A stretch of DNA of 38,204 nucleotides from Candidatus Blautia merdavium (GTDB taxonomy: Bacteria; Bacillota; Clostridia; Lachnospirales; Lachnospiraceae): NCBI GenBank assembly GCA_019119975.1, contig DWVZ01000047.1, forward strand, positions 1 to 38,204, read 5' to 3'. Numbering within the stretch: the first letter of the stretch is position 1; the number at the start of each line of letters is the position of its first letter. The position numbers and the translations under genes are program-made. This document shows positions 9,441-32,054 of the stretch, piece after piece. The notes below the pieces were generated by a model. It did not search any database. It saw nothing but the letters and a program-made list of their open reading frames with translations, and was not told where the DNA came from.

Positions 9441-9469
9441 TTGCAGTTTTTTCATTTCCATAGTATGAT
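9441..9469 (+). promoter_or_regulatory. Promoter of the DUF624 gene
   Basis: TTGCAG and TATGAT are separated by 17 bases. The -10 ends 34 bases before the chosen start at 9504. Confidence 0.6.
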
Positions 9470-9503
9470 AGGTAAATAACAAAAACGAAAGAAGGAAATG
9501 AGA

Positions 9504-10241
9504 ATGGACAGGTTATTCAGCTTGAACAGTCCGGTCATTGTATTTCTCACCAAGGTGGGGGAGCTGATGATCTTAAATGTGCTGACCATCCTGCTGTGCC
9601 TGCCGGTGGTGACAGCCGGAGCCGCGCTTACAGCGCTGTATTATACCACCATACGGATGGTGAGAGATGAGGAGACCTATATCTTTAAAGGCTACATGAA
9701 GTCCTTTCGGGAGAACCTGAAGCAGTCGGTGATCATCTGGTTGATCGTGCTGGCTGTGGGGTGCCTGCTTTACTATGATTTCTTCGTGCTGGTGCAGTTC
9801 CCCGCATCTGCCCTCAGGACAGCGGGTCTGGTGATCCTTACCCTGGTGACGGTGTGTTTCACGGCTATGGCAGTTTATGTATTCCCTGTGCTGTCCAGGT
9901 TTGAGAATACAGTAAAGAATACGATGAAAAATGCGTTTCTGATGGGAATCTTCAATCTTCCCAGGACCATTTTAGTGGTTCTGATCCATCTGGTGCCCAT
10001 TACCATGATCCTGCTGACGCTGCAGGCAATGCCGGTGATCTTTCTGTTTGGATTCTCCGGAGTGGCGTTTTTAAGCAGCTATTCCTTTTCCGCGATCTTC
10101 AAACGGTATGAGCCAAAGGAAGATCCGGATCTGATGAAGTGGAAACCGCTGTCAGAGGAAGCTGAGGAAGCGGCGGCAAAGAAAGGGGAACAGCTTGCCG
10201 CGGAAAGAGACGAGGCGGCAGTCCAGGAGAACGGACAGTAG
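9504..10241 (+). CDS. DUF624 (YesL-like) membrane protein
   Basis: A 245-residue membrane protein with about five to six hydrophobic helices. The N-terminal segment FTILLC-like (NVLTILLCLPVVTAGAALTA) followed by ALYYTTIRMVRDEETYIFKG is typical of DUF624/YesL. The start at the second ATG is preferred, with AAGGAA eight bases upstream; the ATG at 9498 is the alternative. The C-terminal ~40 residues are charged and cytosolic-looking (EEAEEAAAKKGEQLAAERDE). The biochemical role is unknown, but YesL-type genes commonly accompany CUT1 oligosaccharide importers and YesM/YesN regulators, as here. Confidence 0.85.
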   Translation: MDRLFSLNSPVIVFLTKVGELMILNVLTILLCLPVVTAGAALTALYYTTIRMVRDEETYIFKGYMKSFRENLKQSVIIWLIVLAVGCLLYYDFFVLVQFPASALRTAGLVILTLVTVCFTAMAVYVFPVLSRFENTVKNTMKNAFLMGIFNLPRTILVVLIHLVPITMILLTLQAMPVIFLFGFSGVAFLSSYSFSAIFKRYEPKEDPDLMKWKPLSEEAEEAAAKKGEQLAAERDEAAVQENGQ

Positions 10242-10299
10242 AAGCGTTCCGGATTTTTCCGGAAAAATGAAAACATCATTAACGAAGATTTTATCACAG

Positions 10300-10360
10300 A
10301 ATCAGGGGCTGCGCCCCGGCAGAGGTACAGAAATCTGCCGGGGCAGCAGCCCCTGATTTT
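10300..10360. terminator. Bidirectional terminator between convergent genes
   Basis: AATCAGGGGCTGC-GCCCCGGCAGA pairs with its complement over about 24 bp with a single bulged base, around a 10-base loop. TTTTGTCTTTT follows on the plus strand. It separates the convergent DUF624 gene and sulfatase. The T-tract is weaker on the minus strand. Confidence 0.85.
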
Positions 10361-10433
10361 GTCTTTTGCAGCGTTCCTTCCCCGGTAGGTTTCAGATAGA
10401 TTTTGCTCCTGGATAACCGGGGAAGAAGTGTGC

Positions 10434-11876
10434 CTAATGAAAGGTATCTACGCTGTAATCGTGGTAGTGGAACCCGAACCACCTGCCTGGCATATCGCCG
10501 GGGAAGCGGGGGGCTTCGTAGGTTTTGAAGCTTCCGCTTTCGGTGAGTGCTTCCGGTGTGTGGGCGGCAGTGTGCTCCAGCAGCAGTTTCCACAGATGCT
10601 CCCGGATTTCCTGATAAGCGGGATCCTGGGACAGGTCGTGCTGTTCCATGGGATCTTTCTTAAGGTCAAAGAGCAGACAATGATCCCCCACCGCAGAGTA
10701 TACCAGTTTTATGCGGCGCTCCATGGCGCAGAAGTTCCGGTTCAGGCTGTTGCCGAAGAAAATCCGGTCCCTGGAGAGGGAATCTGGTTTTAACAGGTTC
10801 TGTCCGGTTACGGGAACCGGGGAGGAGATGCCTGCCATAGCGAGGATGGTAGGGTACAGGTCAGCCAGATCCGCAGGCGCGTCCACAACACAGTTATGAG
10901 GCAGCTGTCTTCCCTGAGGCGGCATGATCAGCAGCGGTACATGGGCAGAACCTTCAAAGAACAGGTTTTTCTGGGACATATGGTGGTCGCCCAGCATCTC
11001 CCCGTGGTCGGAGGTGAAGATCACCCAGGTGTTTTTGAGAAGATCCAGTTCCCTCAGGGCGCCGAAAATGCGTCCCAGCTGGTAGTCGATCTGTGTGATG
11101 CAGGCATAATAAGCGCGCCTGCTTGCCAGCCTCTGCTCTTTGCCTAAGAGATGCATATTGGTATTTTCATAAGCGCCTGCCAGGAAGCCCTGCGGAGTGT
11201 CCTCCACCGTTTCGGACCAGTCCCCTATGACTGGCGCAGGCAGCGGGATCCCATCGTATAAATCCCAGAAATCCCGGCAGGGATCAAAGGGCGGATGAGG
11301 CTTGGTGAAGCTGCTCCATAAGAAGAAGGGACGTGTCTCATCCCTGGTCTCCAGAAAGTCAATGGTCTCGTCCGCGATCCAGGTGGTGATGCTGTCTTTG
11401 ACATCTGCGGTGGAGAGTACCGGTTCCATTTCACATTCGCCGATGCCGTGGACCTTAGGACGGGCGGTATCCTGCTTTTTGTCGTACTGCCGCATATAGT
11501 CCAGGGGCAGACGCATTTCTTCAAAACCATAGTGGGCACGTGCCGGTTCAAAGTGCATTTTTCCCTTAGCGCAGGTCTGGTAGCCGTGATCGGTCAGTAC
11601 GGCAGGAAGCGTGCTGCGCTCCCGGGTGCACTGGGACATAAAGGCAGCATGGGTGGCATTGCTGACTACGCCGCTTTCGTACCCCTGTCTTCCGGTCATG
11701 ATGGTGGTCCTTGAGGGGACGCAGATGGGGCAGGCAGCATAGCAGCTGGTGAAGCTTACGCCCATAGCGGCAAGGTAATTCAGATGAGGGGTAAAGATGC
11801 TCTGGTTGCCCCAGGCGTTCAGCGTATCAAAGCGCTGCTGGTCGGTGGTGATCAGCAGAATATTGTCTTTCGGCAT
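10434..11876 (-). CDS. Type I sulfatase (sulfatase 1), no signal peptide
   Basis: Formylglycine-dependent sulfate ester hydrolase. The track ORF extends to 11939, but the domain begins MPKDNILLITTDQQRFD, so the ATG at 11876 is chosen (480 residues); the AGGAAAGGA upstream has rather long spacing. The signature CVPSRTTIMTGR places the residue to be modified at C52, a Cys-type sulfatase that would need an anaerobic sulfatase-maturing radical-SAM enzyme, not present in this window. Metal ligands are visible in TTDQ and FTSDHGEMLGDHH. No secretion signal is seen, so it probably acts on imported sulfated sugars. It is transcribed divergently from the transporter genes. The exact sugar is not readable. 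Confidence 0.92.
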   Translation of the reverse strand: MPKDNILLITTDQQRFDTLNAWGNQSIFTPHLNYLAAMGVSFTSCYAACPICVPSRTTIMTGRQGYESGVVSNATHAAFMSQCTRERSTLPAVLTDHGYQTCAKGKMHFEPARAHYGFEEMRLPLDYMRQYDKKQDTARPKVHGIGECEMEPVLSTADVKDSITTWIADETIDFLETRDETRPFFLWSSFTKPHPPFDPCRDFWDLYDGIPLPAPVIGDWSETVEDTPQGFLAGAYENTNMHLLGKEQRLASRRAYYACITQIDYQLGRIFGALRELDLLKNTWVIFTSDHGEMLGDHHMSQKNLFFEGSAHVPLLIMPPQGRQLPHNCVVDAPADLADLYPTILAMAGISSPVPVTGQNLLKPDSLSRDRIFFGNSLNRNFCAMERRIKLVYSAVGDHCLLFDLKKDPMEQHDLSQDPAYQEIREHLWKLLLEHTAAHTPEALTESGSFKTYEAPRFPGDMPGRWFGFHYHDYSVDTFH

Positions 11877-11975
11877 AGTTTTTCTTGATTCCTTTCCTGT
11901 AAATTTTGACGAAAATCCGGAAGGAAACCTGCGGGGCATAAACCGCCGGAGATCCGGACCGTGTATGTATTCTCC

Positions 11976-12004
11976 ATGATAAACACAAAAGCAAAGACTG
12001 TCTA
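11976..12004 (-). promoter_or_regulatory. Promoter of sulfatase 1
   Basis: On the minus strand TAGACA and TATCAT (each five of six consensus bases) are separated by 17 bases. The box lies about 100 bases before the preferred ATG. Confidence 0.6.
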
Positions 12005-12290
12005 TCTAAAAAACAATAGATTTAGATCAGGATTTGATAGTATGCAGTAATAAAATGACAAAGTAAAAATAGGTCGATAAGTGGAAAATAGGTGAAAAAT
12101 TGTGCAATTTATACAAAGAATATAAGAAAAAATTGGTTGCCGGACATCATATTTTTATGATGGTATATAAGAAATGTTAGATATACAGATAAAATTGACT
12201 GTTGTATAATATCTTCATCGGGCAACTTGAGCAGAGCGTGAGTTTTTATTGTGAAAGATGTCTAAAAAATTTTATCAAAAGGAGGGGCTT
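12004..12290. promoter_or_regulatory. Divergent control region between sulfatase 1 and the sugar ABC genes
   Basis: An AT-rich region of nearly 290 bp without genes. Inverted repeats are ATCTAAA/TTTAGAT (12004-12010 with 12021-12027) and CATCAT-ATTTTT-ATGATG (12145-12162). A plausible plus-strand promoter is TATACA-17-TATAAT (12182-12210), with a consensus -10 but weak -35, as expected for an activator-dependent promoter. The AraC-type regulator encoded at 17644 is a candidate to bind here; that is inference. Confidence 0.5.
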
Positions 12291-13241
12291 ATGAAAAAAG
12301 AAGCAAAAACAAAGGAAAAGGTTAAGAAAAAACGCTGGACCAGAGATGACACAGAACTCTCCCTTTTAGCGCTTCCCACCACAGTGTGGTACCTGCTGTT
12401 CAGCTTCCTGCCCATGTTCGGTATCATTATCGCATTCAAAGATTACCGGGTAAACGGCGGATTCATCAACAGTATGCTCACCAGTGAGTGGAACGGAGTT
12501 GAGAACTTTAAGTTCCTGTTCGGAAGCGGCGACATTGGGATCATCCTGAGAAACACCATCGGGTACAACATTGTGTTCATCATCCTGGGTATTGTGGTTC
12601 CGGTTGCGGCGGCGATCGCTATTGGCTACATACACAGCAAGAGAGCTGCGAAGGTTTACCAGACAGCCATGTTCATGCCTTACTTCCTGTCATGGGTAGT
12701 TGTCAGCGCACTGATCTGGGCATTCCTGTCTTACGACAAAGGTCTTGTAAACGGATTGATCGCAAGCGGCGGCGGTGAAAGGGTACAGTGGTATATGAAA
12801 CCTGAGATCTGGCCTTTCTTCCTGGTATTTATGAACCTGTGGAAGAGTGTAGGATACGGAATGGTAGTTTACCTGGCGACCATCACCGGTATTGACAAGA
12901 CCTATTATGAAGCGGCATGTATCGACGGAGCTACCATCTGGCAGCAGATCCGGTTCATTACTCTGCCGCTGATGAAGACCGTTATCATCATGATGTTTAT
13001 CATGGCAGTAGGACGTATCTTCTACTCTGACTTCGGTCTGTTCTATCAGGTACCACGTGATTCCAACTCCCTGTACAATGTCACCTATACGCTGGATGTA
13101 TTCACATACAAACAGTTAAAGACAGCTACCACCGGAATGGCGGCGGCAGCGGCGTTTGTACAGTCCGTAGCAGGCTGTATCACCATTCTTACGGCAAATG
13201 CCATCGTGCGTAAGATCGACCGTGAGAGTGCAATGATTTAA
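12291..13241 (+). CDS. CUT1 sugar ABC transporter permease, LplB-like
   Basis: Inner-membrane permease for oligosaccharide import. The ATG at 12291 is chosen over 12258 because AAAAGGAGGGGCTT directly precedes it (316 residues). A basic N-terminal tail precedes six predicted membrane helices, and the cytoplasmic EAA loop reads EAACIDGATIWQQIRFITLP. The family (LplB/YteP-like) pairs with a YtcP-like permease and a large lipoprotein binding protein, exactly the two genes that follow. No ATPase gene is present; such systems often use a shared MsmK-type ATPase encoded elsewhere. Confidence 0.93.
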   Translation: MKKEAKTKEKVKKKRWTRDDTELSLLALPTTVWYLLFSFLPMFGIIIAFKDYRVNGGFINSMLTSEWNGVENFKFLFGSGDIGIILRNTIGYNIVFIILGIVVPVAAAIAIGYIHSKRAAKVYQTAMFMPYFLSWVVVSALIWAFLSYDKGLVNGLIASGGGERVQWYMKPEIWPFFLVFMNLWKSVGYGMVVYLATITGIDKTYYEAACIDGATIWQQIRFITLPLMKTVIIMMFIMAVGRIFYSDFGLFYQVPRDSNSLYNVTYTLDVFTYKQLKTATTGMAAAAAFVQSVAGCITILTANAIVRKIDRESAMI

Positions 13242-13252
13242 GGAGGGATATC

Positions 13253-14203
13253 ATGGCGGAAAATGTAAAAAAGAAAAAGAAACAAAAAGAAGTCCTGGAA
13301 GGCTTCGAGAAATTTAACCGTGTATCCAAGCCTACGAATGCTGTACTGCATGTGATCTTTATCCTGGCAGCGCTGGCGTGTGTAGTACCGGTGCTCCTGG
13401 TAGTAGCGATCTCCTTCAGCGCGGAGGAATCCATACAGCAGTACGGATACAGCTTTATTCCGAAGATCGTATCTCTGGAAGGATACGCATACCTGGTAAC
13501 ACAGGGCAAAATGATCCTGAGGGCTCTCGGAATCTCCCTGTTCGTTACCGTTGTAGGTACGGTCCTGGGCGTCCTGCTCACTACACTGATGGGCTATGTA
13601 CTTTCCAGACCTACTTACAAATTAAAAGGCTTCCTGACTATGGTGGTATTTATCCCTATGGTATTTAACGGCGGTCTTGTTTCTACATACGTTGTTGTTA
13701 CTCAGTTTTTAGGATTGAAAAACTCGATCTGGGCGCTGATACTGCCTCTGTGCGTATCTTCCTTTAATGTTATCATCTGCCGTACGTTCTTCCAGACGAC
13801 GGTGCCGGAATCCCTGATCGAATCAGCGAAAATGGACGGCGCCACCCAGCTGAAGATTTTCTTCAGTGTAGTGCTTCCCATTTCCCTGCCGGTGCTTGCA
13901 ACCATCGGACTGTTTCTTTCCTTTGCATACTGGAATGACTGGTATCAGTCACTGCTGTATATCGAAGATTCCAGTCTGTATTCCCTGCAGGCGCTGCTGA
14001 ACGCTATCCTGACCAATATTCAGGTGCTTGCGAAAAATGCGGCTGCTATGGGCGCCAGCCAGGCGGAAGTTCTGGCAAATATGCCTCAGGAATCTGCCCG
14101 TATGGCGATCGTGGTCTGCATCGTGCTTCCAATCGCATGTGCATATCCGTATTTCCAGAAATACTTTATTTCCGGTCTTACTGTAGGCGCAGTAAAAGGC
14201 TGA
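13253..14203 (+). CDS. CUT1 sugar ABC transporter permease, YtcP-like
   Basis: Second permease subunit of 316 residues, starting 11 bp after its partner with TAAGGAGGGATATC before the ATG. The N-terminus is strongly basic (KKKKKQKEV), followed by six membrane helices. The EAA-type loop reads ESAKMDGATQLKIFFSVVLP, and the C-terminus ends QKYFISGLTVGAVKG, the usual CUT1 ending. It forms the heterodimeric channel with the upstream permease. Confidence 0.93.
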   Translation: MAENVKKKKKQKEVLEGFEKFNRVSKPTNAVLHVIFILAALACVVPVLLVVAISFSAEESIQQYGYSFIPKIVSLEGYAYLVTQGKMILRALGISLFVTVVGTVLGVLLTTLMGYVLSRPTYKLKGFLTMVVFIPMVFNGGLVSTYVVVTQFLGLKNSIWALILPLCVSSFNVIICRTFFQTTVPESLIESAKMDGATQLKIFFSVVLPISLPVLATIGLFLSFAYWNDWYQSLLYIEDSSLYSLQALLNAILTNIQVLAKNAAAMGASQAEVLANMPQESARMAIVVCIVLPIACAYPYFQKYFISGLTVGAVKG

Positions 14204-14285
14204 TCGGAAAAGCAACTGAACATGATATTGATGGGACGAGGACCATTCAATATACAAATGTATCTTTAACAGGAGGACATATTTT

Positions 14286-15749
14286 ATGAAGAAGAAAAAC
14301 TTAAAGAGACTTTGTGCTCTGGGTCTGACAGGCGTTATGTCAGCGTCTATGCTGGCAGGCTGCGGCGGAAGCGGAGACTCTAACGGCGGCGGGGAATCCA
14401 AAGACGGAGTTCCCACACTGGTATGGTGGCTGGTAGGCGGAACCACACCGGACGGATTCAATGACATGGTATCTAAGATCAGCGATTATTCTGAAGAGAA
14501 GATCGGCGTAAGAGTAGACATTAAGATCGCCGGATACGATAACTACGACAGCAAATCCAATACCATCGCAAATGCCGGTGAATACTTCGACATTATGTTT
14601 GTCAACAACACCAACTATGGTAAATTTGTAAACCTGGGTATCCTGGAAGACATTACAGAGAGCGTTAAGACAGAAGCTCCGGATCTGTACGAGTTCATTC
14701 CGGAAGACTTATGGGATGGTGTTACTTACAAGGGCGGCATCTATGCGGTTCCAACCTACAAGGACTCTTCTCTGACACAGTTCTGGTACCTGGATGACGC
14801 TATGGTACAGAAATACGGCATTGACTATGAAGGCGTAACAACTATGGATCAGCTGGGCGACATTTTCAAAACTCTGAAAGAGGGCGAAAACAACCCGAGC
14901 TACTATCCATGTATGCTTGACCAGGGCGCACTCTGGAACGGATTCTTCAATGAGTACGACGGTCTGGCAGCAGGTCTTCAGCCAATGGGTGTGAAGATCG
15001 ACGACGAAAGCCGCAAAGTTATCAACGTATTAGAGCAGGATGATATCAAACACAATCTGGAATTACTCCATGAATGGTATCAGGCAGGCTACATTAACCC
15101 GGATGCAAACGTTCTGACAGAGAGCAGCAAAGGCCACACCTTCGGTAATGCACAGGGATGGCCGGCAGCAGTAAGCCAGTGGCAGGATTTACAGGGCATC
15201 GAAAAATACGATGCATGGAAAGTATTCGGTCCTATCTATACAACAGAGACAATCCAGGGTTCCATGAATGCGATTTCTGCGAACTCCAAGTATAAAACAG
15301 AAGCTCTTAAACTTCTTGAACTTGTAAATACAGACAAAACCTTCCGTGATATGCTGGCATATGGTATCGAAGGCGAGACCTTTGAATATACAGAGGAAGG
15401 AAGAGTAGAAAAGCTGACAGATACATGGTCAATCGGTAACTATACAATCGGAACATACTTCAATTTGTCAGGTCTGGCTGATGCTGACCCGGCTGAATAC
15501 GATCAGATCAAACAGCAGAATGAAGAAGCTACACAGTCTGTATGCCTTGGTTTCGCATTTGACTCTGAACCGGTACAGAATGAACTGGCAAGCTGCAAGA
15601 CTGTTTGGGATAAGTATAAATACGACCTGCTGACAGGTGCTTCTGATCCTAGCGAAGTTCTTCCTAAAGTAACCGAAGAGCTGAAAGCCCAGGGATTTGA
15701 AAAAGTTATGGAAGAAGCTCAGAAACAGCTTGACGAGTTCTTTAAGTAG
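14286..15749 (+). CDS. Extracellular sugar-binding lipoprotein of the ABC transporter
   Basis: A 487-residue solute-binding protein anchored to the outer face of the membrane. The signal peptide ends in lipobox LAGC with lipidated Cys26, then a Gly/Ser-rich linker. The mature protein has the family 1 binding fold (VPTLVWWLVGGTTPDGFNDM, and aromatic residues such as NEYDGLAAG and AQGWPAAVSQWQD typical of sugar sites). Length and layout resemble LipO/YtcQ-type oligosaccharide-binding proteins. A GGAGG ribosome binding site precedes the start, 82 bp after the permease. Specificity is inferred only from the adjacent sulfatase/GH20/GH38 genes. Confidence 0.93.
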   Translation: MKKKNLKRLCALGLTGVMSASMLAGCGGSGDSNGGGESKDGVPTLVWWLVGGTTPDGFNDMVSKISDYSEEKIGVRVDIKIAGYDNYDSKSNTIANAGEYFDIMFVNNTNYGKFVNLGILEDITESVKTEAPDLYEFIPEDLWDGVTYKGGIYAVPTYKDSSLTQFWYLDDAMVQKYGIDYEGVTTMDQLGDIFKTLKEGENNPSYYPCMLDQGALWNGFFNEYDGLAAGLQPMGVKIDDESRKVINVLEQDDIKHNLELLHEWYQAGYINPDANVLTESSKGHTFGNAQGWPAAVSQWQDLQGIEKYDAWKVFGPIYTTETIQGSMNAISANSKYKTEALKLLELVNTDKTFRDMLAYGIEGETFEYTEEGRVEKLTDTWSIGNYTIGTYFNLSGLADADPAEYDQIKQQNEEATQSVCLGFAFDSEPVQNELASCKTVWDKYKYDLLTGASDPSEVLPKVTEELKAQGFEKVMEEAQKQLDEFFK

Positions 15750-15807
15750 GATTATAAATAATAAGAAGTAAGAGCCAGGAATCGTGCAAATACGCGATAT
15801 GGCAAAT

Positions 15808-15841
15808 ACGCCCTCCGCATATCTGTGCGGAGGGCGTTTCC
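15808..15841 (+). terminator. Terminator or attenuator after the binding-protein gene
   Basis: A perfect 12-bp stem, ACGCCCTCCGCA/TGCGGAGGGCGT, closes a 6-base loop. The tail is only TTCC, so termination may be partial. It lies between the transporter genes and the two-component genes and could let the binding protein be made in excess. Confidence 0.65.
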
Positions 15842-15914
15842 GCGTGACAGGGATTTCTCCTGCAGAGCAGTACGGCTGGAGAGTCTGATCTATTAGATAT
15901 CGAGGTACAGGCAT

Positions 15915-17666
15915 ATGAGGAAAGACAGGAAACCGTTTCTGAAATATCGTATTCACAGGAAAAAATTTTTCTATCATCTGCTGACGGCAGTTCTTTTGTG
16001 CGTCATCCTGCTTGCGGGGCTTCTGGTGTTCTTTTCCGGAAGCTGGGAAAACCAGTATTCTCAGGCGGTACAGAAAAATTTTCTGGAGGCAGAGCAGAGA
16101 CTGGGGAGCATCGAAGCCTGGTCGGAGGCATATATCGAAGAGATATACCGCAACCGGAACGTGATGGATGACACCAAAGCAATGCTGAATGCAGAAACTT
16201 ATGATGATTATATGAAGCTGCGGGGTGAAAACAGCAAAAACTATGAGTACCAGCTGGCATACCTGCCCGGGAAACTGAAACGGCTGTTTGTGAATCCCCA
16301 GGCAAATATACGCTGCATTACCCTGGAAGGGGAAAACGGGGTAAAGACTATATGGCTGGATCCGGTATCCAATGATATGAGGCTGAAGTTTGAGCAGAAC
16401 GACGGACAGGAAGCAGAGCCCTGCTACGGAGATCTGGCGATCCTGATTTATACGGTCCGTGATTCCACCGCAGTGTCTAATGTGTATGGGCAGATGCGTC
16501 TGTGGGTTTCCAGCGAGGATATCTTTGGCGAGCTGCAGGCAGATCAGATGGGGGTATGGGAAGTCCTCTCCCAGGGAGAAGTTCTGACCGGAGGGGAAGT
16601 GACGGATAAGGAGAAGGAATGGCTGGAAGGAAACGGAGGCTTCCGCTTAAGTCCGGTGGTTTTCTGGAGACTGGAGTCCGCTCAGGCAGATTATGAGTAC
16701 CGGGCGGCTGTGGATTATCTGACGCTGCTGGGCAGGCATGAGAGTACCTTGTGGGTCGTGATTGTGGCGCTTGTGCTGATCGCCGCGGGCGGGGTATTCG
16801 TAGACTATCTGGGACTGCGTCAGGATGAGAAATTTCTCAATTACATTATGGGGACACTGGAAACCATGGAGGAAGGTGATTTTTCCCGGATCCGGCAGAG
16901 AAAATTTCCTGTACAGCAAAAGGAAAACGAGTATTCTCTCATCGCTTCCGCTTTAAGGGATGTGGGGCTGGAGCTGGAAACTTATATTAAGACAGAATAC
17001 ATATTAAAAATGAAAGAGCAGGAAACAGAAATGCGGGCGCTGCAGCATCAGATCAATCCCCACTTTCTGTACAATACGCTGGAGATGATCCGCTCTCAGT
17101 CTCTGCAGAGCGGAGATATCCGTACCGCGGACGCCATCGAGATGCTGGGAGCCCTGTACCGGGCGCGTATGAATAAACATAAGAGCATTCATCTGAAAGA
17201 GGAATTCCATTACCTGGAGCTGTATTTAAAGATCATGCAGCTGCGCTACGGGGAAGGCTTCCTTTACCAGGTGGAGCTGGAGCCGGAAGTGGAAAATGTA
17301 GAGACGCTGAATTTCTGGCTGCAGCCTTTGGCTGAGAATTTCTTTTCCCATGGATATGACCGGGCAAGTGAATTTAACCTGCTGATCGTGACCGGACATA
17401 AGGAGGGAGACGGCGTGCGGATCCAGGTAGTGGACAACGGACGGGGGATCGATCCGCAGGAGCTGGAGACAGTCCGAAGAAATATGTATGAGGGGAACGA
17501 TGATCCGGATGCAGACATCGGGCTTCGGAACGTGTATATGCGTCTCAGTTATTTTTATCCCGAAGGCTTTTCAATGACCATCGGAAATAATGAGGAGAGC
17601 GGAGTGGGTGTATCAATATTTATTCCGGGAAAGGCGGTGGAGGATGTACACACTTTTAATAGTTGA
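15915..17666 (+). CDS. YesM-type sensor histidine kinase
   Basis: Membrane sensor of the LytS/YesM class, 583 residues. TM1 lies at about residues 18-37, an extracytoplasmic sensor region at about 38-275, and TM2 at about 277-298, then a HAMP-like linker and the His_kinase domain with the QINPHFLYNTLEM motif (phosphoacceptor H383). The HATPase domain ends the protein with VVDNGRGIDPQEL and DIGLRNVYMRL. The extracellular region presumably senses the glycan directly or through the binding protein. The response regulator gene overlaps its 3' end by 23 bp. Confidence 0.93.
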   Translation: MRKDRKPFLKYRIHRKKFFYHLLTAVLLCVILLAGLLVFFSGSWENQYSQAVQKNFLEAEQRLGSIEAWSEAYIEEIYRNRNVMDDTKAMLNAETYDDYMKLRGENSKNYEYQLAYLPGKLKRLFVNPQANIRCITLEGENGVKTIWLDPVSNDMRLKFEQNDGQEAEPCYGDLAILIYTVRDSTAVSNVYGQMRLWVSSEDIFGELQADQMGVWEVLSQGEVLTGGEVTDKEKEWLEGNGGFRLSPVVFWRLESAQADYEYRAAVDYLTLLGRHESTLWVVIVALVLIAAGGVFVDYLGLRQDEKFLNYIMGTLETMEEGDFSRIRQRKFPVQQKENEYSLIASALRDVGLELETYIKTEYILKMKEQETEMRALQHQINPHFLYNTLEMIRSQSLQSGDIRTADAIEMLGALYRARMNKHKSIHLKEEFHYLELYLKIMQLRYGEGFLYQVELEPEVENVETLNFWLQPLAENFFSHGYDRASEFNLLIVTGHKEGDGVRIQVVDNGRGIDPQELETVRRNMYEGNDDPDADIGLRNVYMRLSYFYPEGFSMTIGNNEESGVGVSIFIPGKAVEDVHTFNS

Positions 17667-18405: not shown

Positions 18406-18419
18406 GGAAAGGAGAAGAC

Positions 18420-19895: not shown

Positions 19896-19944
19896 AAAGA
19901 ACAAAAATAACAAAAATAACATGTAAGGGCAGAAGGAGAACACG

Positions 19945-23712: not shown

Positions 23713-23725
23713 AGGAGTACAGAAC

Positions 23726-26700
23726 ATGTGGTTTCTTGATAAGAGAGTACAGGTTATTTGCGACGAGTTAAAGAAACTGGCAGTGGTGAAAACGCTGCCC
23801 ATGGAAAACATTACTTACAAAGAAGGAAGGTTCCTCTATCCTTCCCAGGCAGACAAAGACGAGACCTCGTGGAAGCCCTTCTGCCAGAAAACTATGAAGT
23901 GGTACGGACCGGATAAACACTACTGGTTCCGGGCGGATTATACGGTTCCCCAGGAGATGGAGGGGCAGACCATGCGCCTTCATGTGAAAACCCAGATCGA
24001 TGAGTGGGACGACGCCAGAAATCCCCAGTTCCTGCTGTTTGTCAATGACAAAGCCACCCAGGGACTGGATATGAACCACAGAATTGTGAATCTGACTTCC
24101 GACGCAGTGCCGGGGGAGACCTGGAGACTGGATCTTCAGGCGTATACAGGAACCCTTCACGGGGAGTTTGATATGATCATGGAGATGCAGCAGGTGGATA
24201 CCAGAATTGAGAAGCTGTACTTTGACCTGATCGTACCTCTCCAGGCGTTTACCCGTATGAAGAAAGAGGACAAGGTGCGTATGGATCTGGAAAACGTGCT
24301 CAACGAGACCGTGAACCTGCTGGATCTGCGCACACCTTATTCCGAAGGATTTTATGCCAGCTTGGAAAAGGCTCAGGCTTACATCGACAAAGCCCTTTAC
24401 GAGGATATGACCGGATATGACGAGGTAGTTGCCACCTGCATCGGACACACCCACATTGATGTGGCATGGCTGTGGACTGTAGAGCAGACCAGGGAAAAGA
24501 CTGCCAGAAGCTTTTCCACAGTGCTGAAGCTGATGGAGGAATTCCCCAACTATAAGTTTATGTCCAGCCAGCCCCAGCTCTATGAATTCCTGAAAGAACG
24601 CTACCCGGATCTGTATGCGCAGATCAAAGAGCGGGTAAAGGAAGGGCGCTGGGAGCCGGAAGGCGGCATGTGGCTGGAAGCCGATACCAACCTGACTTCC
24701 GGGGAGTCTCTGGTGCGCCAGTTCCTGTATGGGAAAAGATTCTTCAAAGAAGAATTCGGCGTGGATTCCAGGATCCTGTGGCTGCCGGACGTGTTTGGCT
24801 ATTCCGGAGCCCTGCCCCAGATCATGAAAAAATCCGGCATTGATTACTTTATGACAACCAAACTGGCATGGAACCAGATTGATAAGATGCCGTACGATAC
24901 TTTTCTGTGGAAAGGCATCGACGGAAGCGCCATTTTCACACACCTGGTGACCACACTGGGCGTGGGACAGAGCGAAGATGATTTCTTCACCACCTACAAC
25001 GGCATGCTCCATCCGGACGCGCTGATGGGCGGCTGGAACCGTTATCAGAATAAGGATATCAACAACGACATTCTGGTCTGCTACGGTTACGGCGACGGCG
25101 GCGGCGGTCCTACCAGAGAAATGCTGGAGACTTCTAAACGTATGGAAAAAGGCATCAAAGGTCTGCCGAAGGTACGCCAGGAATTTTCCAGAAAATATTT
25201 TGACGAACTGTATGACCGGGTAAAAGACAGCCGCAGGCTGGCTACCTGGGAAGGGGAACTGTATTTTGAATATCACAGGGGAACCTATACTTCCATGGGC
25301 AGGAACAAACGCGCCAACAGAAAGAGCGAGATCCTGATGATGAATCTGGAGCTCTTGTCCCTTCTGGCAGCGGAAAAAGGCGTGGATTATGATACAAAAG
25401 CCATGGAAAACATGTGGAAGGTGCTCCTTTTAAACCAGTTCCACGACATCCTTCCGGGTTCTTCCATTCAGGAAGTCTATGAAGTGACGAAGAAAGAATA
25501 CGAAGAAGTGGAAAAGAACGGCAGCGCCATGCTGGAGGAACGGATGCAGGTGCTTGCCGGAGAGGGAGAGAATGTAACCGTCTTTAATACTCTTGGCTTT
25601 GACCGCAACGATGTGGTGCGTCTGCCGGGCAGCGTGCAGGGAGCCCTGGAAGATGAGGATGGAAAGCTCTACCCGGTGCAGGAGCTGGGAGATGCTTCCG
25701 TGGTTTATCTGACAGACCTGCCGTCCAAAGGGCAGAAATCCTACAGGATCCGGGAAGGCGCTCCTGTGGCATCTCCTTTCCAGAGGGAAGGAAACTGCCT
25801 GGAGACTCCTTATTATCGGGTGGAACTGGACGAAAACGGTTTTTTCACCTCTCTGTTCGATAAGGCAAACGACAGAGAGATCGTACAGGAAGGAAAGAAA
25901 GCAAACCTGTTCCGCATGTATGAAGACAAGCCGATGCATTACAACAACTGGGACATTGACATTTATTACTCAGAAAAATTCTGGGATGTGACCGAAGCCA
26001 CGAAGATCCAGTGGACTATGGAAGGCGCTGTGTGCGCGGTGCTGGAGATCGAGCGTCCGGTCAGCAGATCCCTGATCCGCCAGAAGATCTATTTCTATAA
26101 GGATACGCCCAGAATTGATTTCGAGACCTATGTAGACTGGAAGGACTGCCAGCATCTTCTGAAGGTGCACTTCCCGGTGGATATCCATACAGACGAGGCG
26201 TCCTTTGACGTGCAGTTCGGCAATCTGACCAGGAAGGTGCATACCAATACCAGCTGGGACAGAGCCAGATTCGAGTCCTGCGGTCAGAAGTGGATGGATC
26301 TGTCCGAGGGGCATTACGGTGTCAGCCTGCTTAATGACTGCAAATACGGTCATTCGGTAAAAGATTCCGACATTGCCCTGACACTGATCAAATCCGGAAA
26401 TGAGCCCAACCCTGTGGCAGACCAGGAAGAGCACTGGTTCACCTACTCTCTGTATCCGCACAAAGGAAACTTAAGAGAGTGCGATACAGTAAGAGAGAGC
26501 TACTGCCTGAACTTCCCTGCCCTGACAGCGCTTCATACGGCAATGGGAGAGACGGCTTCTCTTCTGTCTGTGGACCAGAAAAATGTCATGGCAGAGACTG
26601 TGAAGCCAGCAGAGGACGGCAATGGCGTGATCCTCCGTGTTTATGAATACGAAAACGCCAGAACCAAAGCAGCCATTACCTTCGGCATGGGACACAAGAT

Positions 26701-26827
26701 CGCCAGCGTGCAGGAATGCAATCTTATGGAAGAGCCGGAAGGCGGTCTGCTGGAACACACAGAGGAAAGCTTTGCCTTTGTGATCAAGCCTTATGAGATC
26801 AAGACCTACCGGGTGGTATTTCAGTAA
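23726..26827 (+). CDS. GH38 alpha-mannosidase
   Basis: Zinc-dependent retaining exo-alpha-mannosidase, 1033 residues, the normal size of bacterial cytosolic GH38 enzymes. An N-terminal beta domain (1-230) precedes the catalytic (beta/alpha)7 barrel. Zinc ligands H243 and D245 are in GHTHIDVAW, the nucleophile is D355 in WLPDVFGYSGALPQI, and QFHDILPGSSI carries the later conserved His. The C-terminal ~450 residues are the GH38 beta-sandwich domains. The start follows AAAGGAGTACAGAAC. Position after two GH20 genes suggests removal of mannose exposed once HexNAc is taken off, as on trimmed N-glycans; that order is inference. Confidence 0.95.
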   Translation: MWFLDKRVQVICDELKKLAVVKTLPMENITYKEGRFLYPSQADKDETSWKPFCQKTMKWYGPDKHYWFRADYTVPQEMEGQTMRLHVKTQIDEWDDARNPQFLLFVNDKATQGLDMNHRIVNLTSDAVPGETWRLDLQAYTGTLHGEFDMIMEMQQVDTRIEKLYFDLIVPLQAFTRMKKEDKVRMDLENVLNETVNLLDLRTPYSEGFYASLEKAQAYIDKALYEDMTGYDEVVATCIGHTHIDVAWLWTVEQTREKTARSFSTVLKLMEEFPNYKFMSSQPQLYEFLKERYPDLYAQIKERVKEGRWEPEGGMWLEADTNLTSGESLVRQFLYGKRFFKEEFGVDSRILWLPDVFGYSGALPQIMKKSGIDYFMTTKLAWNQIDKMPYDTFLWKGIDGSAIFTHLVTTLGVGQSEDDFFTTYNGMLHPDALMGGWNRYQNKDINNDILVCYGYGDGGGGPTREMLETSKRMEKGIKGLPKVRQEFSRKYFDELYDRVKDSRRLATWEGELYFEYHRGTYTSMGRNKRANRKSEILMMNLELLSLLAAEKGVDYDTKAMENMWKVLLLNQFHDILPGSSIQEVYEVTKKEYEEVEKNGSAMLEERMQVLAGEGENVTVFNTLGFDRNDVVRLPGSVQGALEDEDGKLYPVQELGDASVVYLTDLPSKGQKSYRIREGAPVASPFQREGNCLETPYYRVELDENGFFTSLFDKANDREIVQEGKKANLFRMYEDKPMHYNNWDIDIYYSEKFWDVTEATKIQWTMEGAVCAVLEIERPVSRSLIRQKIYFYKDTPRIDFETYVDWKDCQHLLKVHFPVDIHTDEASFDVQFGNLTRKVHTNTSWDRARFESCGQKWMDLSEGHYGVSLLNDCKYGHSVKDSDIALTLIKSGNEPNPVADQEEHWFTYSLYPHKGNLRECDTVRESYCLNFPALTALHTAMGETASLLSVDQKNVMAETVKPAEDGNGVILRVYEYENARTKAAITFGMGHKIASVQECNLMEEPEGGLLEHTEESFAFVIKPYEIKTYRVVFQ

Positions 26828-26869
26828 AGACAGGCAGATACATTTGGCTCAAGCCGGGAGGAAAAGAAC

Positions 26870-29257
26870 ATGAAAGAGAAGTTTCGGGACAGCAGTTTGT
26901 CTCCCCGGGAGCGGGCAGAGGACCTGCTGGGGAGACTCAGTACCAGAGAAAAAGTCGGACAGCTGAACCAGCGCCTTTATGGATTCCATGCGTATGAATG
27001 CCGGGAGGGGAAAGTTTCCCCTTCCCCGGAATTTCTGGAGGAAGTGAAGCGCTGGGGCGGGCTGGGTGTGCTTTACGGACTTTACCGGGCAGACCCCTGG
27101 TCCGGGAGATATTATGAAAACGGTCTTTGGGGCGAACGGGCAAAGGAAGCCTACAACCTGCTCCAGCGCATCGTGATAGAGAATTCCAGATTCGGCATTC
27201 CCATGCTGCTCTCCACGGAGTGCCCCCACGGGCATCAGGCGCTGGACGGATACCTGCTTCCGGTGAATCTTGCCATGGGAGCAGCCTTCCACCCGGAGCT
27301 GGCAGAGCAGGCATACCGGGTGTGCGCGGACCAGCTCGCAAAGCTGGGGGTGGATCTGGCGCTGATCTCCATGCTGGATGTGCTCCGGGATCCCAGATGG
27401 GGCAGGAGTGAGGAATGTTTCGGAGAGGATCCTTATCTGGCAGCCAGGTATGCCCGGGCAGTAGTGAAGGGGATGCGCTCTGGCGGTGTCGGCGTGGTAG
27501 CAAAGCATTTCGCTGCCCAGGGGGAAACCACCGGAGGCGTCAATGCCAGTGCGGCAAGGATTGGGGAGCGGGAATTAAGAGAGATCCATTTTCCGCCCAT
27601 GGCTGCGGCGGCAGAGGCAGGCGCGGCAGGGGTCATGGCAGCGTACAATGAGATCGACGGCATCCCCTGCCACGCAAATCCCTGGCTGCTGGGACAGGTG
27701 CTGAGAGAGGAAATGGGCTTTGACGGCATTGTCATGGCGGACGGATTCGCGGTGGACCGGCTGGAAGTCCTGACGCAGAGCACACTGGCAGCAGGCGCCC
27801 AGGCGCTGAACGCAGGAGTGGATGTGTCCCTGTGGGACGAAGGCTTTACCAGGCTGGAAGAGGCGCTGGAGAAGGGGCTGATCTCAGAAGAGCGTCTGGA
27901 TGAGGCTGTGCTGCGGGTATTGGAGCTGAAGTTTGAGAGAGGACTTTTTGAGCATCCTTATCTTGGAGAAGATACCGGAGAGGATGGGGGAAGCGTGCAG
28001 GCTGCGGCGGACTGCCGCACAGAAAAGCTGTGCTGCGGTGACGGACAGCAGGATGGAGCGCAGAATCCGAAGCCGGAACAAACAGAGAGTCTGGAGCTTG
28101 CCAGAGAATCAGTAATCCTGCTGAAAAATCAGGGAGAGATCCTGCCGCTGCCAACGGACAAACCTCTCCGGATCGCGCTGATCCACCCCGGCGGCGAAGA
28201 TGTATACAGCCAGCTGGGCGACTATACGCCTCCGGTCCGGGAGGGAAGTTATGTCACCCTGGAACAAGGGTTGAAGGAAGCGGTGAAGCGGTATCCTCAG
28301 CTCAGCCTTACCATCTGCGGGGAGCAGGGAACAGAGGAAGGCTGCCGTGCCGCAGCTTTGGCAGCTTCCCAAAGTGACGCAGCAGTCCTCCTGCTGGGCG
28401 GAAGTTCCAGCAGGTTCGGGGAAGTGGTCTTCGATAAAAACGGGGCTGCCATTACCCAGGGCGCTCCCTGTATGGACTGCGGCGAGGGCGTGGACCTTTC
28501 CAGCCTGCAGCTGCCTGCGGACCAGCTTCGCGTGGCACAGGCAGTGTACAGCCAGAAGACTCCGGTGATCACCATCGTCAATGCAGGGCGTCCCTATGAT
28601 ATCAGCCAGATCGCGGAGCGTTCGGAAGGGATCCTCTACAGCTTTTATCCCGGTCCCTGGGGCGGACAGGCGCTGGCGGAGATCCTGCTGGGAGAGGTTT
28701 CCCCGTCTGGAAGGCTTCCGGCGTCCCTGCCCTCCGGCTGCGGAAGGCTGCCCGTCTACTATAATTACCGGGCATCTTATGATGCCATGCACTACTGTGA
28801 CGGAAAGGACGGCGCTCTGTATTCCTTCGGATACGGACTGGGATACGGGGAAGTCTCCTACAGCAATTTTCAGGTCACAGATAAGAAAACCGCAGCAGGA
28901 ACCCCAGAGGAAGGAGTCTTTGCGGACGAGGGACTTTTGGCAGACGAACAACTTTTTGCAGAGATCCGGTTCCGGGTGGAAAATACCACGGACAGGCAGC
29001 TGTGGGCAGTCCCCATGCTGTTCATCAGCCGCAGGACCGGATGCGTAGTGCCGAGAGCGGCGGAGCTGAAAGGATTTACTAAGGTTCTGCTGAAGCCGCA
29101 AGAAGTGAAAGAACTCTGTCTGAAGCTTACAGAACAGAAGATGAGAGTCTGGGGCAGGAACGGCTGCTATGAGCCGGAGACAGGAGCGGTGATTCTGGAA
29201 ATCCGGGACGGAAACAGGAAGCTCTGGACGGAGGAAGTCCGGGGGAAGAAGGACTAG
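26870..29257 (+). CDS. GH3 family beta-glycosidase
   Basis: Retaining exo-beta-glycosidase of 795 residues. It has a GH3 N-terminal barrel (about 1-340; KHFAAQGETTGGVNASAA and GVMAAYNEIDGIPCHANPW), nucleophile D291 in GIVMADGF, a GH3 C-terminal alpha/beta domain (about 410-640; LLLGGSSSRFGEV, FYPGPWGGQALAEILLGEV) and a fibronectin III-like end. The motifs match the beta-glucosidase/beta-xylosidase type, not the NagZ type (no KHFPGHGDT), so hexosaminidase activity is less likely. An acidic, low-complexity insert at about 365-400 joins the two domains. No signal peptide. GGGAGGAAAAGAAC precedes the start. Confidence 0.93.
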   Translation: MKEKFRDSSLSPRERAEDLLGRLSTREKVGQLNQRLYGFHAYECREGKVSPSPEFLEEVKRWGGLGVLYGLYRADPWSGRYYENGLWGERAKEAYNLLQRIVIENSRFGIPMLLSTECPHGHQALDGYLLPVNLAMGAAFHPELAEQAYRVCADQLAKLGVDLALISMLDVLRDPRWGRSEECFGEDPYLAARYARAVVKGMRSGGVGVVAKHFAAQGETTGGVNASAARIGERELREIHFPPMAAAAEAGAAGVMAAYNEIDGIPCHANPWLLGQVLREEMGFDGIVMADGFAVDRLEVLTQSTLAAGAQALNAGVDVSLWDEGFTRLEEALEKGLISEERLDEAVLRVLELKFERGLFEHPYLGEDTGEDGGSVQAAADCRTEKLCCGDGQQDGAQNPKPEQTESLELARESVILLKNQGEILPLPTDKPLRIALIHPGGEDVYSQLGDYTPPVREGSYVTLEQGLKEAVKRYPQLSLTICGEQGTEEGCRAAALAASQSDAAVLLLGGSSSRFGEVVFDKNGAAITQGAPCMDCGEGVDLSSLQLPADQLRVAQAVYSQKTPVITIVNAGRPYDISQIAERSEGILYSFYPGPWGGQALAEILLGEVSPSGRLPASLPSGCGRLPVYYNYRASYDAMHYCDGKDGALYSFGYGLGYGEVSYSNFQVTDKKTAAGTPEEGVFADEGLLADEQLFAEIRFRVENTTDRQLWAVPMLFISRRTGCVVPRAAELKGFTKVLLKPQEVKELCLKLTEQKMRVWGRNGCYEPETGAVILEIRDGNRKLWTEEVRGKKD

Positions 29258-29277
29258 GAAAAGAAGAATTAGGGGAG

Positions 29278-29479
29278 AAACTTTGCACAGAGAAAGTTAC
29301 GAGAAAAAGAATTGGGGGAAAACTCTGTGCAGAGGAAATGCAGGGAAAAAGAATCCGGAAAACTATATACAGAGGAAATACAGAGAAAAGAATCCGAAAA
29401 AACTCTGTACAAAGGAAATGCAGGGAAAAGAATCTGGAAAACTTTGTGCAGAAGAAATTCCGGAAAAAAGAAGAAAAAG
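29278..29479 (+). repeat. Imperfect tandem repeat, about 40 bp unit, five copies
   Basis: Units begin near 29278, 29320, 29360, 29400 and 29440. The core is AAACTCTGTGCAGAGGAAAT followed by GCAGGGAAAAAGAATCCGGA. Copies 2-4 are exactly 40 bases, copy 1 is about 42, and copy 5 degenerates into A/G-rich sequence. The plus strand is strongly purine-rich. There are no spacers, so it is not a CRISPR. It fills the only large gap in the hydrolase operon. Confidence 0.85.
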
Positions 29480-29577
29480 ATCGGCAGGACGGAAAAACTG
29501 TCGCTGAAAGGGCAGAGACATCTGCCGCAAAAGAGAAGAGAATATTAATGGAAAATGCAGGAGAACTAGAGCTATGA
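29338..29577 (+). other. Possible 79-residue basic ORF made from the 40-bp repeats
   Basis: This frame (MQGKRIRKTIYRGNTEKRIR onward) runs through the repeats and its stop overlaps the ATG of the next gene in an ATGA junction. Because 40 is not a multiple of three and the tract is poor in T, all three plus frames are open here, so an open frame is weak evidence. No clear ribosome binding site precedes it. It is listed because the ATGA overlap could couple translation into the GH38-like gene; most likely it is not a real protein. Confidence 0.15.
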
Positions 29578-31967
29578 ATAAAATCAAGGACGTATATATT
29601 ATTCATCATTCTCATACGGATATTGGGTATACCGATCTTCAGGAAACTGTGATCTTTCATCAGATCCACCATATCCGCAAAGCAATGGAAATCATTGAAA
29701 AAGGCTATGCTGAAAACAGTGCGGAAAAAGATTTCCGATGGAACTGTGAGACTTATTTCTGCGTGGAACGTTTCCTGGAAAACGCCGGGGAAGAAGAACG
29801 CGCCAGATTCTTTGATCTGGTAAAGAAGGGGAATATCGGGCTGTCAGCCAATTACCTGAACTTTAATGATCTGGTAGACTGTGAGATGCTGGGCAGAAGG
29901 CTGGACAGCATGAAAGAATTCCTTGCCGGACAGGACATTCAGGTAAAGACAGCCATGAACGCGGATATCAACGGAATCTCCATGGGACACAGAGACGCCC
30001 TTCTGGACTGCGGCGTGGAATTTCTCTTTACCAATATCCACTGCCACCACGGCATGTATCCCCTGTACCAGAACCAGACCCCCTATTTCTGGGAGGCAGC
30101 AGACGGACGCCGCCTGCTGGTATGGAACGGAGAGCATTACAATCTGGGCAATGCGCTTGGTCTGGTCTATAACCGGAATGTAAACTTCATGACAGAAAAT
30201 TATTTCGGAAAAGCCAAAGGAGAAGATCCCCTGGAAGAGCTGCATAAGAAGCTGGGAGACAGCATCCGGGAATATGAAGAGAACGGATATCCTTATGACT
30301 TTTACATTACCAGCGTGTCCGGCGTGTTCAGCGACAACGCTCCGCCGAACCCCAATATCATCCATACCGTGTGCCAGTTCAATGAACGGTACGGTGAAGA
30401 AGTACAGCTCCATATGGTGACTCTGGAGCAGCTGTATGAACGGATCAAAGACAGCTTAAAAGACGCGCCTGTCTATCAGGGAGATTTAAATGACTGGTGG
30501 GCAAACGGTGTGGGGAGCACCCCTTACTCCGTAAAGCTCTATAAAGAAGCCCTGCGTTTCCATCACATCAGCGACCGGCTGGAAGAGCATACCGGTTTCG
30601 CACAGGAGGATCTGAAGAGACAGGCAGAAGAGCGCCTGTTCCTTTACGCAGAGCACACCTGGGGACATTCCGCCAGCATCACCAATCCCTATGATACCAT
30701 GGTGCTGAATCTGGATACCCGCAACACCAGCTACGCCTCTGCAGGGCACGAACTGGGAGCCATGAGAAAGAAAGAGCAGTGCCGCAGGCTGGGAGATGTC
30801 CTGAGCTACTATAGCCTGAACGGACAGGTAAAAGCGATCTCCTTCTCCGGAAAAGCAGGATATTTCCCTGTGGAATTTTATGTGGAGACCATGACCATGC
30901 CGGGGGCTGTGATCACAGACCTGAAGACCGGCGAACAGCCTAAAATACAGCTTTCCCCTCATCCAAGAGGCGTGCTGATCAGCTTTGTCTCCTGGTTTGA
31001 GCCGGGAGAAGAGAAGGTATTCAGCTACCGGGAGTCTGTGCCTGCCGCTCAGGGACAGTTTACCAGGACCGCTTATGTAGGCGCGGAAAGAGTGCGGGAT
31101 ATCGTTAATACCTATGATGCCGAGACCTACCGCCTGCCTTATGAGATCGAGAATCCCTGGTTTAAGATCCGCTACCAGGTGGGAGAAGGCATCCTGTCCT
31201 TCTTCAACAAAAAGACAGGAACCGAAATGCTGCCGGAAGGCGAGATCCCCTTCTTTACCCCCATCTATGAGGAAACCGAGATCCGCACAGATGTGTATGA
31301 GGAAAGAAGACTCCTGGGAAGAAACATCCGGGGACTCCATGCAAAAGCATCGGCAGGAAAGTTAAAAGACGTCCGGGTGCTGGAGCAGGGAGAAGTCTTT
31401 GTCAGCATTGAGCTGGAATTTGCCCTTCCGGGAACAGATTTCTGCTCCGTGATCCTGAAAATGTACCGGGAACTTCCCAAGGTGGAATTCCGCTTAAAGA
31501 CTGCCAAACAGTTAAGCAGCTCCATCGAGAGCCTGTATCTGCCGCTGACTTTAAAACTGCCGGATACCGAGCTTTATATCCACAAGGGCGGCGTACCCAT
31601 GCGCCCGGGCATCGACCAGCTTCCGGGAACCTGCATGGAATATTATATCGCGGATGAAGGTCTGCTCTTCCGGGGAGAGGAAGGAAGCATGCTGGTGCAG
31701 ACATTGGATACTTCTCTGATCTACCAGGGAGAGATGCGCCACCATCCTATTTGTCTGTGCGACCGCAGACCGGAGAATAATCAGCGCCCGGTCTACAGCT
31801 GGATCATGAACAATACCTGGGAAACCAACTTCCAGATCGATCTTTCCGGATATGGTGAATTCTGCTACAGTGTGGAATTTGTCCAGGGAAACAGCCTGGA
31901 AGAAGACCTGTGCAGACTGAAGGAAAATGATATGGGAATCGAAACCTTCATCACAGCCCAGGAATAA
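29574..31967 (+). CDS. GH38-like glycoside hydrolase, short form
   Basis: A 797-residue protein whose N-terminus begins directly with the GH38-type barrel: VYIIHHSHTDIGYTD (putative zinc ligands H14 and D16), TAMNADINGISMGH (candidate nucleophile D131) and YAEHTWGHSASI (conserved His). It lacks the ~230-residue N-terminal domain of the larger mannosidase in this operon and is only distantly similar to it. The C-terminal half looks like the beta-sandwich region. The start follows GCAGGAGAACTAGAGCT. An alpha-mannosidase-type activity is inferred; a different sugar or linkage is possible in this divergent group. Last gene of the operon, followed by terminators. Confidence 0.78.
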   Translation: MNKIKDVYIIHHSHTDIGYTDLQETVIFHQIHHIRKAMEIIEKGYAENSAEKDFRWNCETYFCVERFLENAGEEERARFFDLVKKGNIGLSANYLNFNDLVDCEMLGRRLDSMKEFLAGQDIQVKTAMNADINGISMGHRDALLDCGVEFLFTNIHCHHGMYPLYQNQTPYFWEAADGRRLLVWNGEHYNLGNALGLVYNRNVNFMTENYFGKAKGEDPLEELHKKLGDSIREYEENGYPYDFYITSVSGVFSDNAPPNPNIIHTVCQFNERYGEEVQLHMVTLEQLYERIKDSLKDAPVYQGDLNDWWANGVGSTPYSVKLYKEALRFHHISDRLEEHTGFAQEDLKRQAEERLFLYAEHTWGHSASITNPYDTMVLNLDTRNTSYASAGHELGAMRKKEQCRRLGDVLSYYSLNGQVKAISFSGKAGYFPVEFYVETMTMPGAVITDLKTGEQPKIQLSPHPRGVLISFVSWFEPGEEKVFSYRESVPAAQGQFTRTAYVGAERVRDIVNTYDAETYRLPYEIENPWFKIRYQVGEGILSFFNKKTGTEMLPEGEIPFFTPIYEETEIRTDVYEERRLLGRNIRGLHAKASAGKLKDVRVLEQGEVFVSIELEFALPGTDFCSVILKMYRELPKVEFRLKTAKQLSSSIESLYLPLTLKLPDTELYIHKGGVPMRPGIDQLPGTCMEYYIADEGLLFRGEEGSMLVQTLDTSLIYQGEMRHHPICLCDRRPENNQRPVYSWIMNNTWETNFQIDLSGYGEFCYSVEFVQGNSLEEDLCRLKENDMGIETFITAQE

Positions 31968-32014
31968 AGGAAAAAAGAATAGGCTGCAGGGGTGAAAGCC
32001 GCCTGCAGCGCCGG

Positions 32015-32054
32015 AAAACCGGGATGTCTCAGAGAAAAAGGCATCCCGGTTTTT
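32015..32054 (+). terminator. Terminator of the hydrolase operon
   Basis: AAAACCGGGATG and CATCCCGGTTTT form a perfect 12-bp stem around a 15-base loop and run into TTTTT. It lies 48 bases after the GH38-like stop codon. Confidence 0.88.

Follow-up and report, generated by a model that had tools for sequence, protein, structure and literature searches.

What glycan is imported by a Lachnospiraceae locus in which sulfatases, hexosaminidases and alpha-mannosidases stand beside an ATP-binding cassette (ABC) transporter, and how would that cargo be taken apart? We addressed this question for a gene cluster of Candidatus Blautia merdavium (assembly GCA_019119975.1, contig DWVZ01000047.1), which occupies most of the interval from 9,441 to 32,054 in the analyzed stretch of 38,204 nucleotides, hereafter the window. 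An earlier note made by a model from the letters of this DNA had listed one importer, a YesM/YesN-type regulator pair and seven catalytic genes. A Pfam profile search of the window proteins recovered every one of them where it had been placed, the strand of sulfatase 1 (S1) being corrected to minus. We favor a function in which a sulfated N-glycan-type fragment is imported through an NgtS-type transporter under YesMN control, desulfated in the cytosol and trimmed by exo-acting enzymes. It is likely that the cargo is of N-glycan type, and reasonably probable that it is a sulfated N-glycan.

The importer is very likely of NgtS type. Its solute-binding protein (SBP), a DUF3502 lipoprotein (14286-15749, plus strand; PF12010, 91 bits; lipobox LAGC, Cys26), finds all of its best solved relatives among structures of pneumococcal NgtS (5swa, 5mlt and 5suo; E about 1e-49, 28% identity). 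NgtS itself binds Man5GlcNAc as well as Man1GlcNAc (PMC5215778). The SBP gene is preceded on the same strand by ABC permeases A (12258-13241; PF00528; 72-84% identical in syntenic loci) and B (13253-14203; PF00528; 74-82%), and no ABC ATPase gene lies within the locus. We then searched 397 Lachnospiraceae genomes, the family-wide set behind the counts below (in what follows, G, L and C numbers denote the genomes, loci and contigs compared). Six of the seven genomes with SBPs 38-42% identical to that of the window encode a GH38 or GH125 alpha-mannosidase beside the SBP. Three of these six also carry a glycoside hydrolase family 130 (GH130) protein 73-75% identical to one whose best match among solved structures is Uhgb_MP, an assignment that is not absolute, as a mannooligosaccharide phosphorylase comes next, with 467 bits against 485. 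Uhgb_MP has been described as a beta-1,4-mannosyl-N-glycan phosphorylase (PMC10619541). Homology and genomic context thus support the import of an N-glycan-type fragment, and with it the import-first architecture and N-glycan-like substrate that the earlier note had proposed. The position of the NgtS stacking residue Trp386 holds Tyr, also aromatic, in the window SBP, as in 8/8 aligned SBPs; one of these comes from a GH112/GH39 locus, and the residue is therefore not N-glycan-specific.

Both sulfatases are of the Cys type: S1 (10434-11876, minus strand; PF00884, 165 bits), divergent from permease A, carries the C-x-P-S-R motif as CVPSR, and sulfatase 2 (S2; 18420-19895, plus strand; PF00884, 153 bits) as CLPSR. 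The open reading frame (ORF) of S1 opens at 11939, with a likely start near 11876. Cytosolic activation of such enzymes is possible because the same genome encodes an anSME (384 bits, above the cut-off). In a hydropathy scan, as distinct from a SignalP run, all seven enzymes lacked a hydrophobic stretch at the N-terminus, in agreement with the suggestion that they have no signal peptides; the SBP bears a lipobox. The remaining catalytic genes are all on the plus strand. GH20a (19945-21813) and GH20b (21814-23712) each combine PF02838 and PF00728, show a D-E dyad in CADET and are 49% identical to each other. They are followed by GH38a (23726-26827), with all four GH38 Pfam domains, a GH3 enzyme (26870-29257; PF00933, PF01915 and an Fn3-like domain) and GH38b (29574-31967), which matches only the GH38 N-terminal domain PF01074 (41 bits). 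The HxD metal motif is present in both GH38 proteins. Regulation would be provided by a YesM-type sensor kinase of the His_kinase/HATPase type (15915-17666, plus strand; PF06580, 79 bits) and a YesN-type response regulator (17644-18405, plus strand; Response_reg PF00072 and HTH_18 PF12833; likely start around 17644 in an ORF opening at 17590).

These parts suggest a substrate-induced pathway. The YesM/YesN pair would sense the glycan, and an oligosaccharide fragment would be captured by the lipoprotein and brought in whole through permeases A and B, energized by an ATPase presumably encoded elsewhere. In the cytosol, the two sulfatases, their formylglycine installed by the anSME, would strip sulfate esters, as family and motif indicate; the GH20 enzymes would then remove terminal beta-linked N-acetylhexosamine (HexNAc), the GH38 enzymes alpha-mannose, and the GH3 enzyme a beta-linked side sugar. 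We infer this order of action, like the substrate and the induction, from the gene families and their arrangement.

The earlier note had called for a comparison of gene order across Lachnospiraceae, and the core of sulfatases, importer and GH20 proved to be conserved together. The order of a divergent S1 next to permease A, permease B, SBP, kinase and regulator, with S2 and a GH20 further on, recurs in G022, G088 and G402, which represent two other genera, G088 and G402 sharing one. S1 orthologues occupy the same divergent position (79% identity in G022, 70% in G088 and G402), while S2 orthologues are 73-85% and GH20a proteins 54-73% identical. Searched against the 397 genomes, S2 has matches of 74-85% identity in three. 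Around this core the content varies. G088 and G402 also have a GH1, a ROK kinase and GH38a in the locus; in G022 an anchored DUF5722 protein accompanies a GH3 and a GH2 whose sequence includes mannosidase Ig domains. GH38b and GH3 are present or absent independently across the loci compared. S1 occurs together with S2 in seven genomes (0.28 expected), with the SBP in six (0.22 expected) and with GH38b in five (0.14 expected), counts that ignore relatedness and include two same-genus pairs, G088/G402 and G135/G431. Within the genus of the window, none of the other 19 genomes encodes S2, and the locus therefore appears patchy, as might be expected of a trait that is often gained or lost.

Sulfatases and alpha-mannosidases are also paired outside the window. 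Contig C165 of the same genome (L135:1-16000) encodes a regulator, a YesM-type kinase, a GH38 40% identical to GH38a, a GH125, two sulfatases and an Opp-like ABC transporter, and in G093 S1 adjoins a GH125 (L167). This repeated pairing favors a sulfated, mannose-bearing glycan.

Could the cargo instead be a plain N-glycan, or one of high-mannose or plant type, with the sulfatases in a side role or acting on other substrates and GH3 serving as a beta-1,2-xylosidase on N-glycans of plants or invertebrates? Sulfatase-free loci with an NgtS-like SBP, GH38 and GH130 are common in the family, and the best solved match of GH3 is a beta-xylosidase (7zb3, 355 bits). A Bacteroides beta-1,2-xylosidase for plant N-glycans likewise belongs to GH3, and its gene neighbors those of a GH2 and a sulfatase (PMC9522356). 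We nevertheless consider this explanation unlikely, since both sulfatases are kept with the importer and GH20 in 4/4 core loci, where GH38a and GH3 vary, and since S1 and S2 co-occur so strongly. By sequence GH3 resembles beta-xylosidases and beta-glucosidases, and its probable target is a beta-linked side sugar, for instance beta-1,2-xylose or beta-glucose; of all our assignments this one is the weakest.

It is rather improbable that the window holds two neighboring loci with substrates of their own, an importer/S1/S2/GH20a module and an alpha-mannoside module made of GH20b, GH38a, GH3 and GH38b. GH38a is closer to its counterpart in the GH130-type locus L029 (72% identity) than to those of sulfatase loci (58-59%), and GH38b has frequent partners of its own, described below. 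The 316-bp gap between GH3 and GH38b contains about four purine-rich direct repeats of roughly 40 bp each (29317-29472), which makes co-transcription of GH38b uncertain. However, permease A through GH3 (12258-29257) lie on one strand with gaps of at most 165 bp, mostly 0-82 bp, GH38a sits inside the sulfatase/importer operon in G088 and G402 too, and the L029-type locus itself has an NgtS-like importer.

S1 has its best solved match in 7oz8 (220 bits), which we take to be BT1918, an S1_46 3-O-sulfo-GlcNAc sulfatase. Import of sulfated mucin O-glycan or glycosaminoglycan fragments, with the GH38 enzymes as passengers, is very unlikely: this match and the combination of GH20 with sulfatases, typical of mucin use, are in its favor, but the Pfam search of the locus detects no beta-galactosidase, fucosidase, sialidase, glycosaminoglycan lyase, GH88 or GH89, O-glycans and glycosaminoglycan chains are not known to contain the alpha-mannose cut by GH38, and alpha-mannosidases recur beside this SBP family and beside sulfatases. 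An S1_46 3-O-sulfo-GlcNAc sulfatase has been tied to heparin and heparan sulfate use (PMC10154612). There is also a slim chance that the imported N-glycan bears sulfated LacdiNAc antennae (GalNAc-4-sulfate-GlcNAc-Man), a cargo that would explain two GH20s and sulfatases alongside GH38 without a beta-galactosidase or sialidase.

Several observations weigh against import of a sulfated N-glycan. The 20 kb examined for the G022 locus contain no GH38, and S1 of G135 and of G431 is surrounded by housekeeping genes, unlinked to the importer. A Clostridium rhizosphaerae SBP (27% identity) lies near GH112 and GH39, so DUF3502 proteins may bind other glycans, and nothing about GH3 is specific to N-glycans. 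The supply of the fragment and the fate of its core are further difficulties. Endoglycosidases were sought by family: no GH85 was found in the 92%-complete assembly, the control genome being positive, and the sole GH18 carries Cu_amine_oxidN1 and SH3 domains and looks like a cell-wall enzyme, so that there is no evident endoglycosidase to supply the fragment. For the Man-beta-1,4-GlcNAc core, the locus offers neither a beta-1,4-mannosidase nor a GH130, and the GH130s of the genome sit in a mannan-like cluster. Cross-feeding, enzymes of another family or the missing ~8% of the assembly could account for the lack of an endoglycosidase and a core beta-mannosidase, and the fragment may be released by other microbes.

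GH20b is 44-45% identical to GH20s of GH130/GH38 loci. Among the sulfate-binding motifs of GH20 6-sulfo-GlcNAcases (YYINR, YLNR, SN and others), the longer ones were not seen by eye, and sequence alone cannot decide this activity in GH20 (PMC11659886); a GH20 structure model was weak (predicted local distance difference test, pLDDT, 68). GH38a resembles yeast Ams1 and the Bl_Man38 enzymes of Bifidobacterium longum (6lz1, 502 bits; 7ufs, 428 bits), the latter serving N-glycan use (PMC10154615).

GH38b belongs to a widespread, sequence-divergent and modular GH38 group. A sequence search among PDB proteins returned nothing credible for it, yet an AlphaFold2 model built with 32 homologues (pLDDT 83) has the GH38 alpha-mannosidase fold: the top 40 Foldseek matches are all GH38 alpha-mannosidases (E down to 9e-29, 9-14% identity), a result that rules out a new, non-GH38 family. 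Residues H14, D16, D131 and H361 are invariant in 32 sequences and, judging from motif order, would correspond to the HxD metal motif, the Asp nucleophile and a distal His. Fifty-eight loci, from gut and some soil Clostridia, contain relatives of GH38b; few of them have sulfatases, and we could thus discard the idea that it is specific to sulfoglycans. Its frequent partners are a GntR regulator, a ROK kinase and a protein partly like mannose-6-phosphate isomerase, which fits mannose release by GH38b. This last protein (L080:8163-9944 and 16 other GH38b loci) has 579-593 amino acids and no Pfam match, stands beside GntR/UTRA and ROK genes, and matches mannose-6-phosphate isomerase 1qwr in its C-terminal half. 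In the Clostridium rhizosphaerae locus L056, GH38b lies next to the GH112 phosphorylase, GH39 and a 766-amino-acid protein without a Pfam family, a context which suggests that it also acts outside N-glycan use. A 1415-amino-acid protein near GH38b in L030, considered as an endoglycosidase candidate, turned out to be a leucine-rich repeat protein.

How does the locus relate to known systems? The closest in outline is that of streptococci, which consists of the NgtS-P1-P2 importer, CPL enzymes (GH20, ROK, GH38, GH125, GH92 and GH29), EndoD and TCS07 (PMC5215778, PMC7075642), the latter activating importer, GH20, GH38 and GH125 on glycoprotein (PMC7075642). Both share an NgtS-related DUF3502 SBP, two permeases, a two-component regulator and cytosolic GH38 and GH20. 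What sets the locus described here apart is the presence of two sulfatases, a GH3 and a second, divergent GH38; its GH38a is of the Ams1/Bl_Man38 type rather than the SpGH38 type, GH92 is absent from the locus and GH125 is encoded elsewhere (C165). Because two tested features differ, with no GH85 in the genome and Tyr in place of Trp386, we class it as a variant of the streptococcal system. The N-glycan operon of B. longum, which encodes one GH125 and three GH38 enzymes (review PMC10154615; structures of Bl_Man38, 7ufr-7ufu), likewise represents Gram-positive demannosylation of N-glycans by Ams1-like GH38 enzymes, but that review describes no sulfatases in it. Among Lachnospiraceae, the GH130 loci (L029, L031, L168, L169 and L172) combine the same SBP and permease families with a UhgbMP-like GH130, GH38a (up to 72% identity) and GH20b (45-51%), sometimes with GH3 and GH38b; they differ in having LacI instead of YesMN in most cases, GH130, and no sulfatase. 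The Bifidobacterium breve glycosulfatase cluster is another Gram-positive case of import followed by cytosolic desulfation, for GlcNAc-6-sulfate, a monosaccharide, and it is not known to include a mannosidase. Finally, the GlcNAc-6-sulfatase F1-ORF13 and the 6-sulfo-hexosaminidase F10-ORF19 are gut enzymes for sulfated N-glycans (PMC8379841). This pair, likened here by description only, acts on terminal GlcNAc-6-sulfate and comes from Bacteroides/Phocaeicola relatives, with no ABC-import operon.

The suggestion of an undescribed system was overstated: import-first use of N-glycans by Gram-positive bacteria is known (PMC5215778, PMC7075642, PMC10154615), and what appears new is its sulfatase-bearing form. 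No description of sulfatases in an NgtS-type import locus was found in the literature searched, most subscription papers being outside its reach. We only tentatively propose that, among Gram-positive bacteria, this is the first pathway of the import-first kind for sulfated N-glycans, in which the intact sulfated fragment would be desulfated in the cytosol. If so, gut Firmicutes would have a route to sulfated glycoprotein glycans, whose use is mostly attributed to Bacteroides and their secreted or periplasmic sulfatases, and cross-feeding would be suggested, other microbes releasing a fragment that these bacteria import still sulfated. The two sulfatases and two GH20s are candidate enzymes for analyzing sulfated N-glycans in a site-specific manner, and the GH38b group merits characterization.

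A few additional features deserve mention. A promoter-like divergent pair in the gap between S1 and permease A (12004-12210; minus-strand site 12004-11976, plus-strand site 12182-12210) consists of consensus matches only, and shuffled sequence gives as many. Contig C59 of the same genome (L003/L134) encodes a further sulfatase-like protein with CIAAR in place of CxPSR, within a few kb of the gene for the anSME. G022 has paralogues on C6 (L108), C12 (L174) and C36 (L175): a second S2 (83% identical), adjacent to a different ABC importer, and two more SBPs of the NgtS-like kind (63-68%). The membrane-anchored DUF5722 protein that closes its syntenic sulfatase locus (L107:41-1879) is a candidate extracellular glycan-releasing enzyme; it had no match in the Blautia genome, though the search controls were also silent. 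Next to the S1 end, a YesL-like DUF624 membrane protein (9498-10241, plus strand; PF04854, 72 bits) adjoins the locus; its membership is uncertain, and no such gene was seen beside the core in G022, G088 or G402. On the other side, an AAA-ATPase_like/PDDEXK_9 protein (32228-33814) has a relative (27% identity) beside S1 in G402 (L132:3982-5676), and a 596-amino-acid protein on the minus strand (35784-37574) shows a weak Melibiase (GH36-like) match of 32 bits and is possibly a divergent enzyme.

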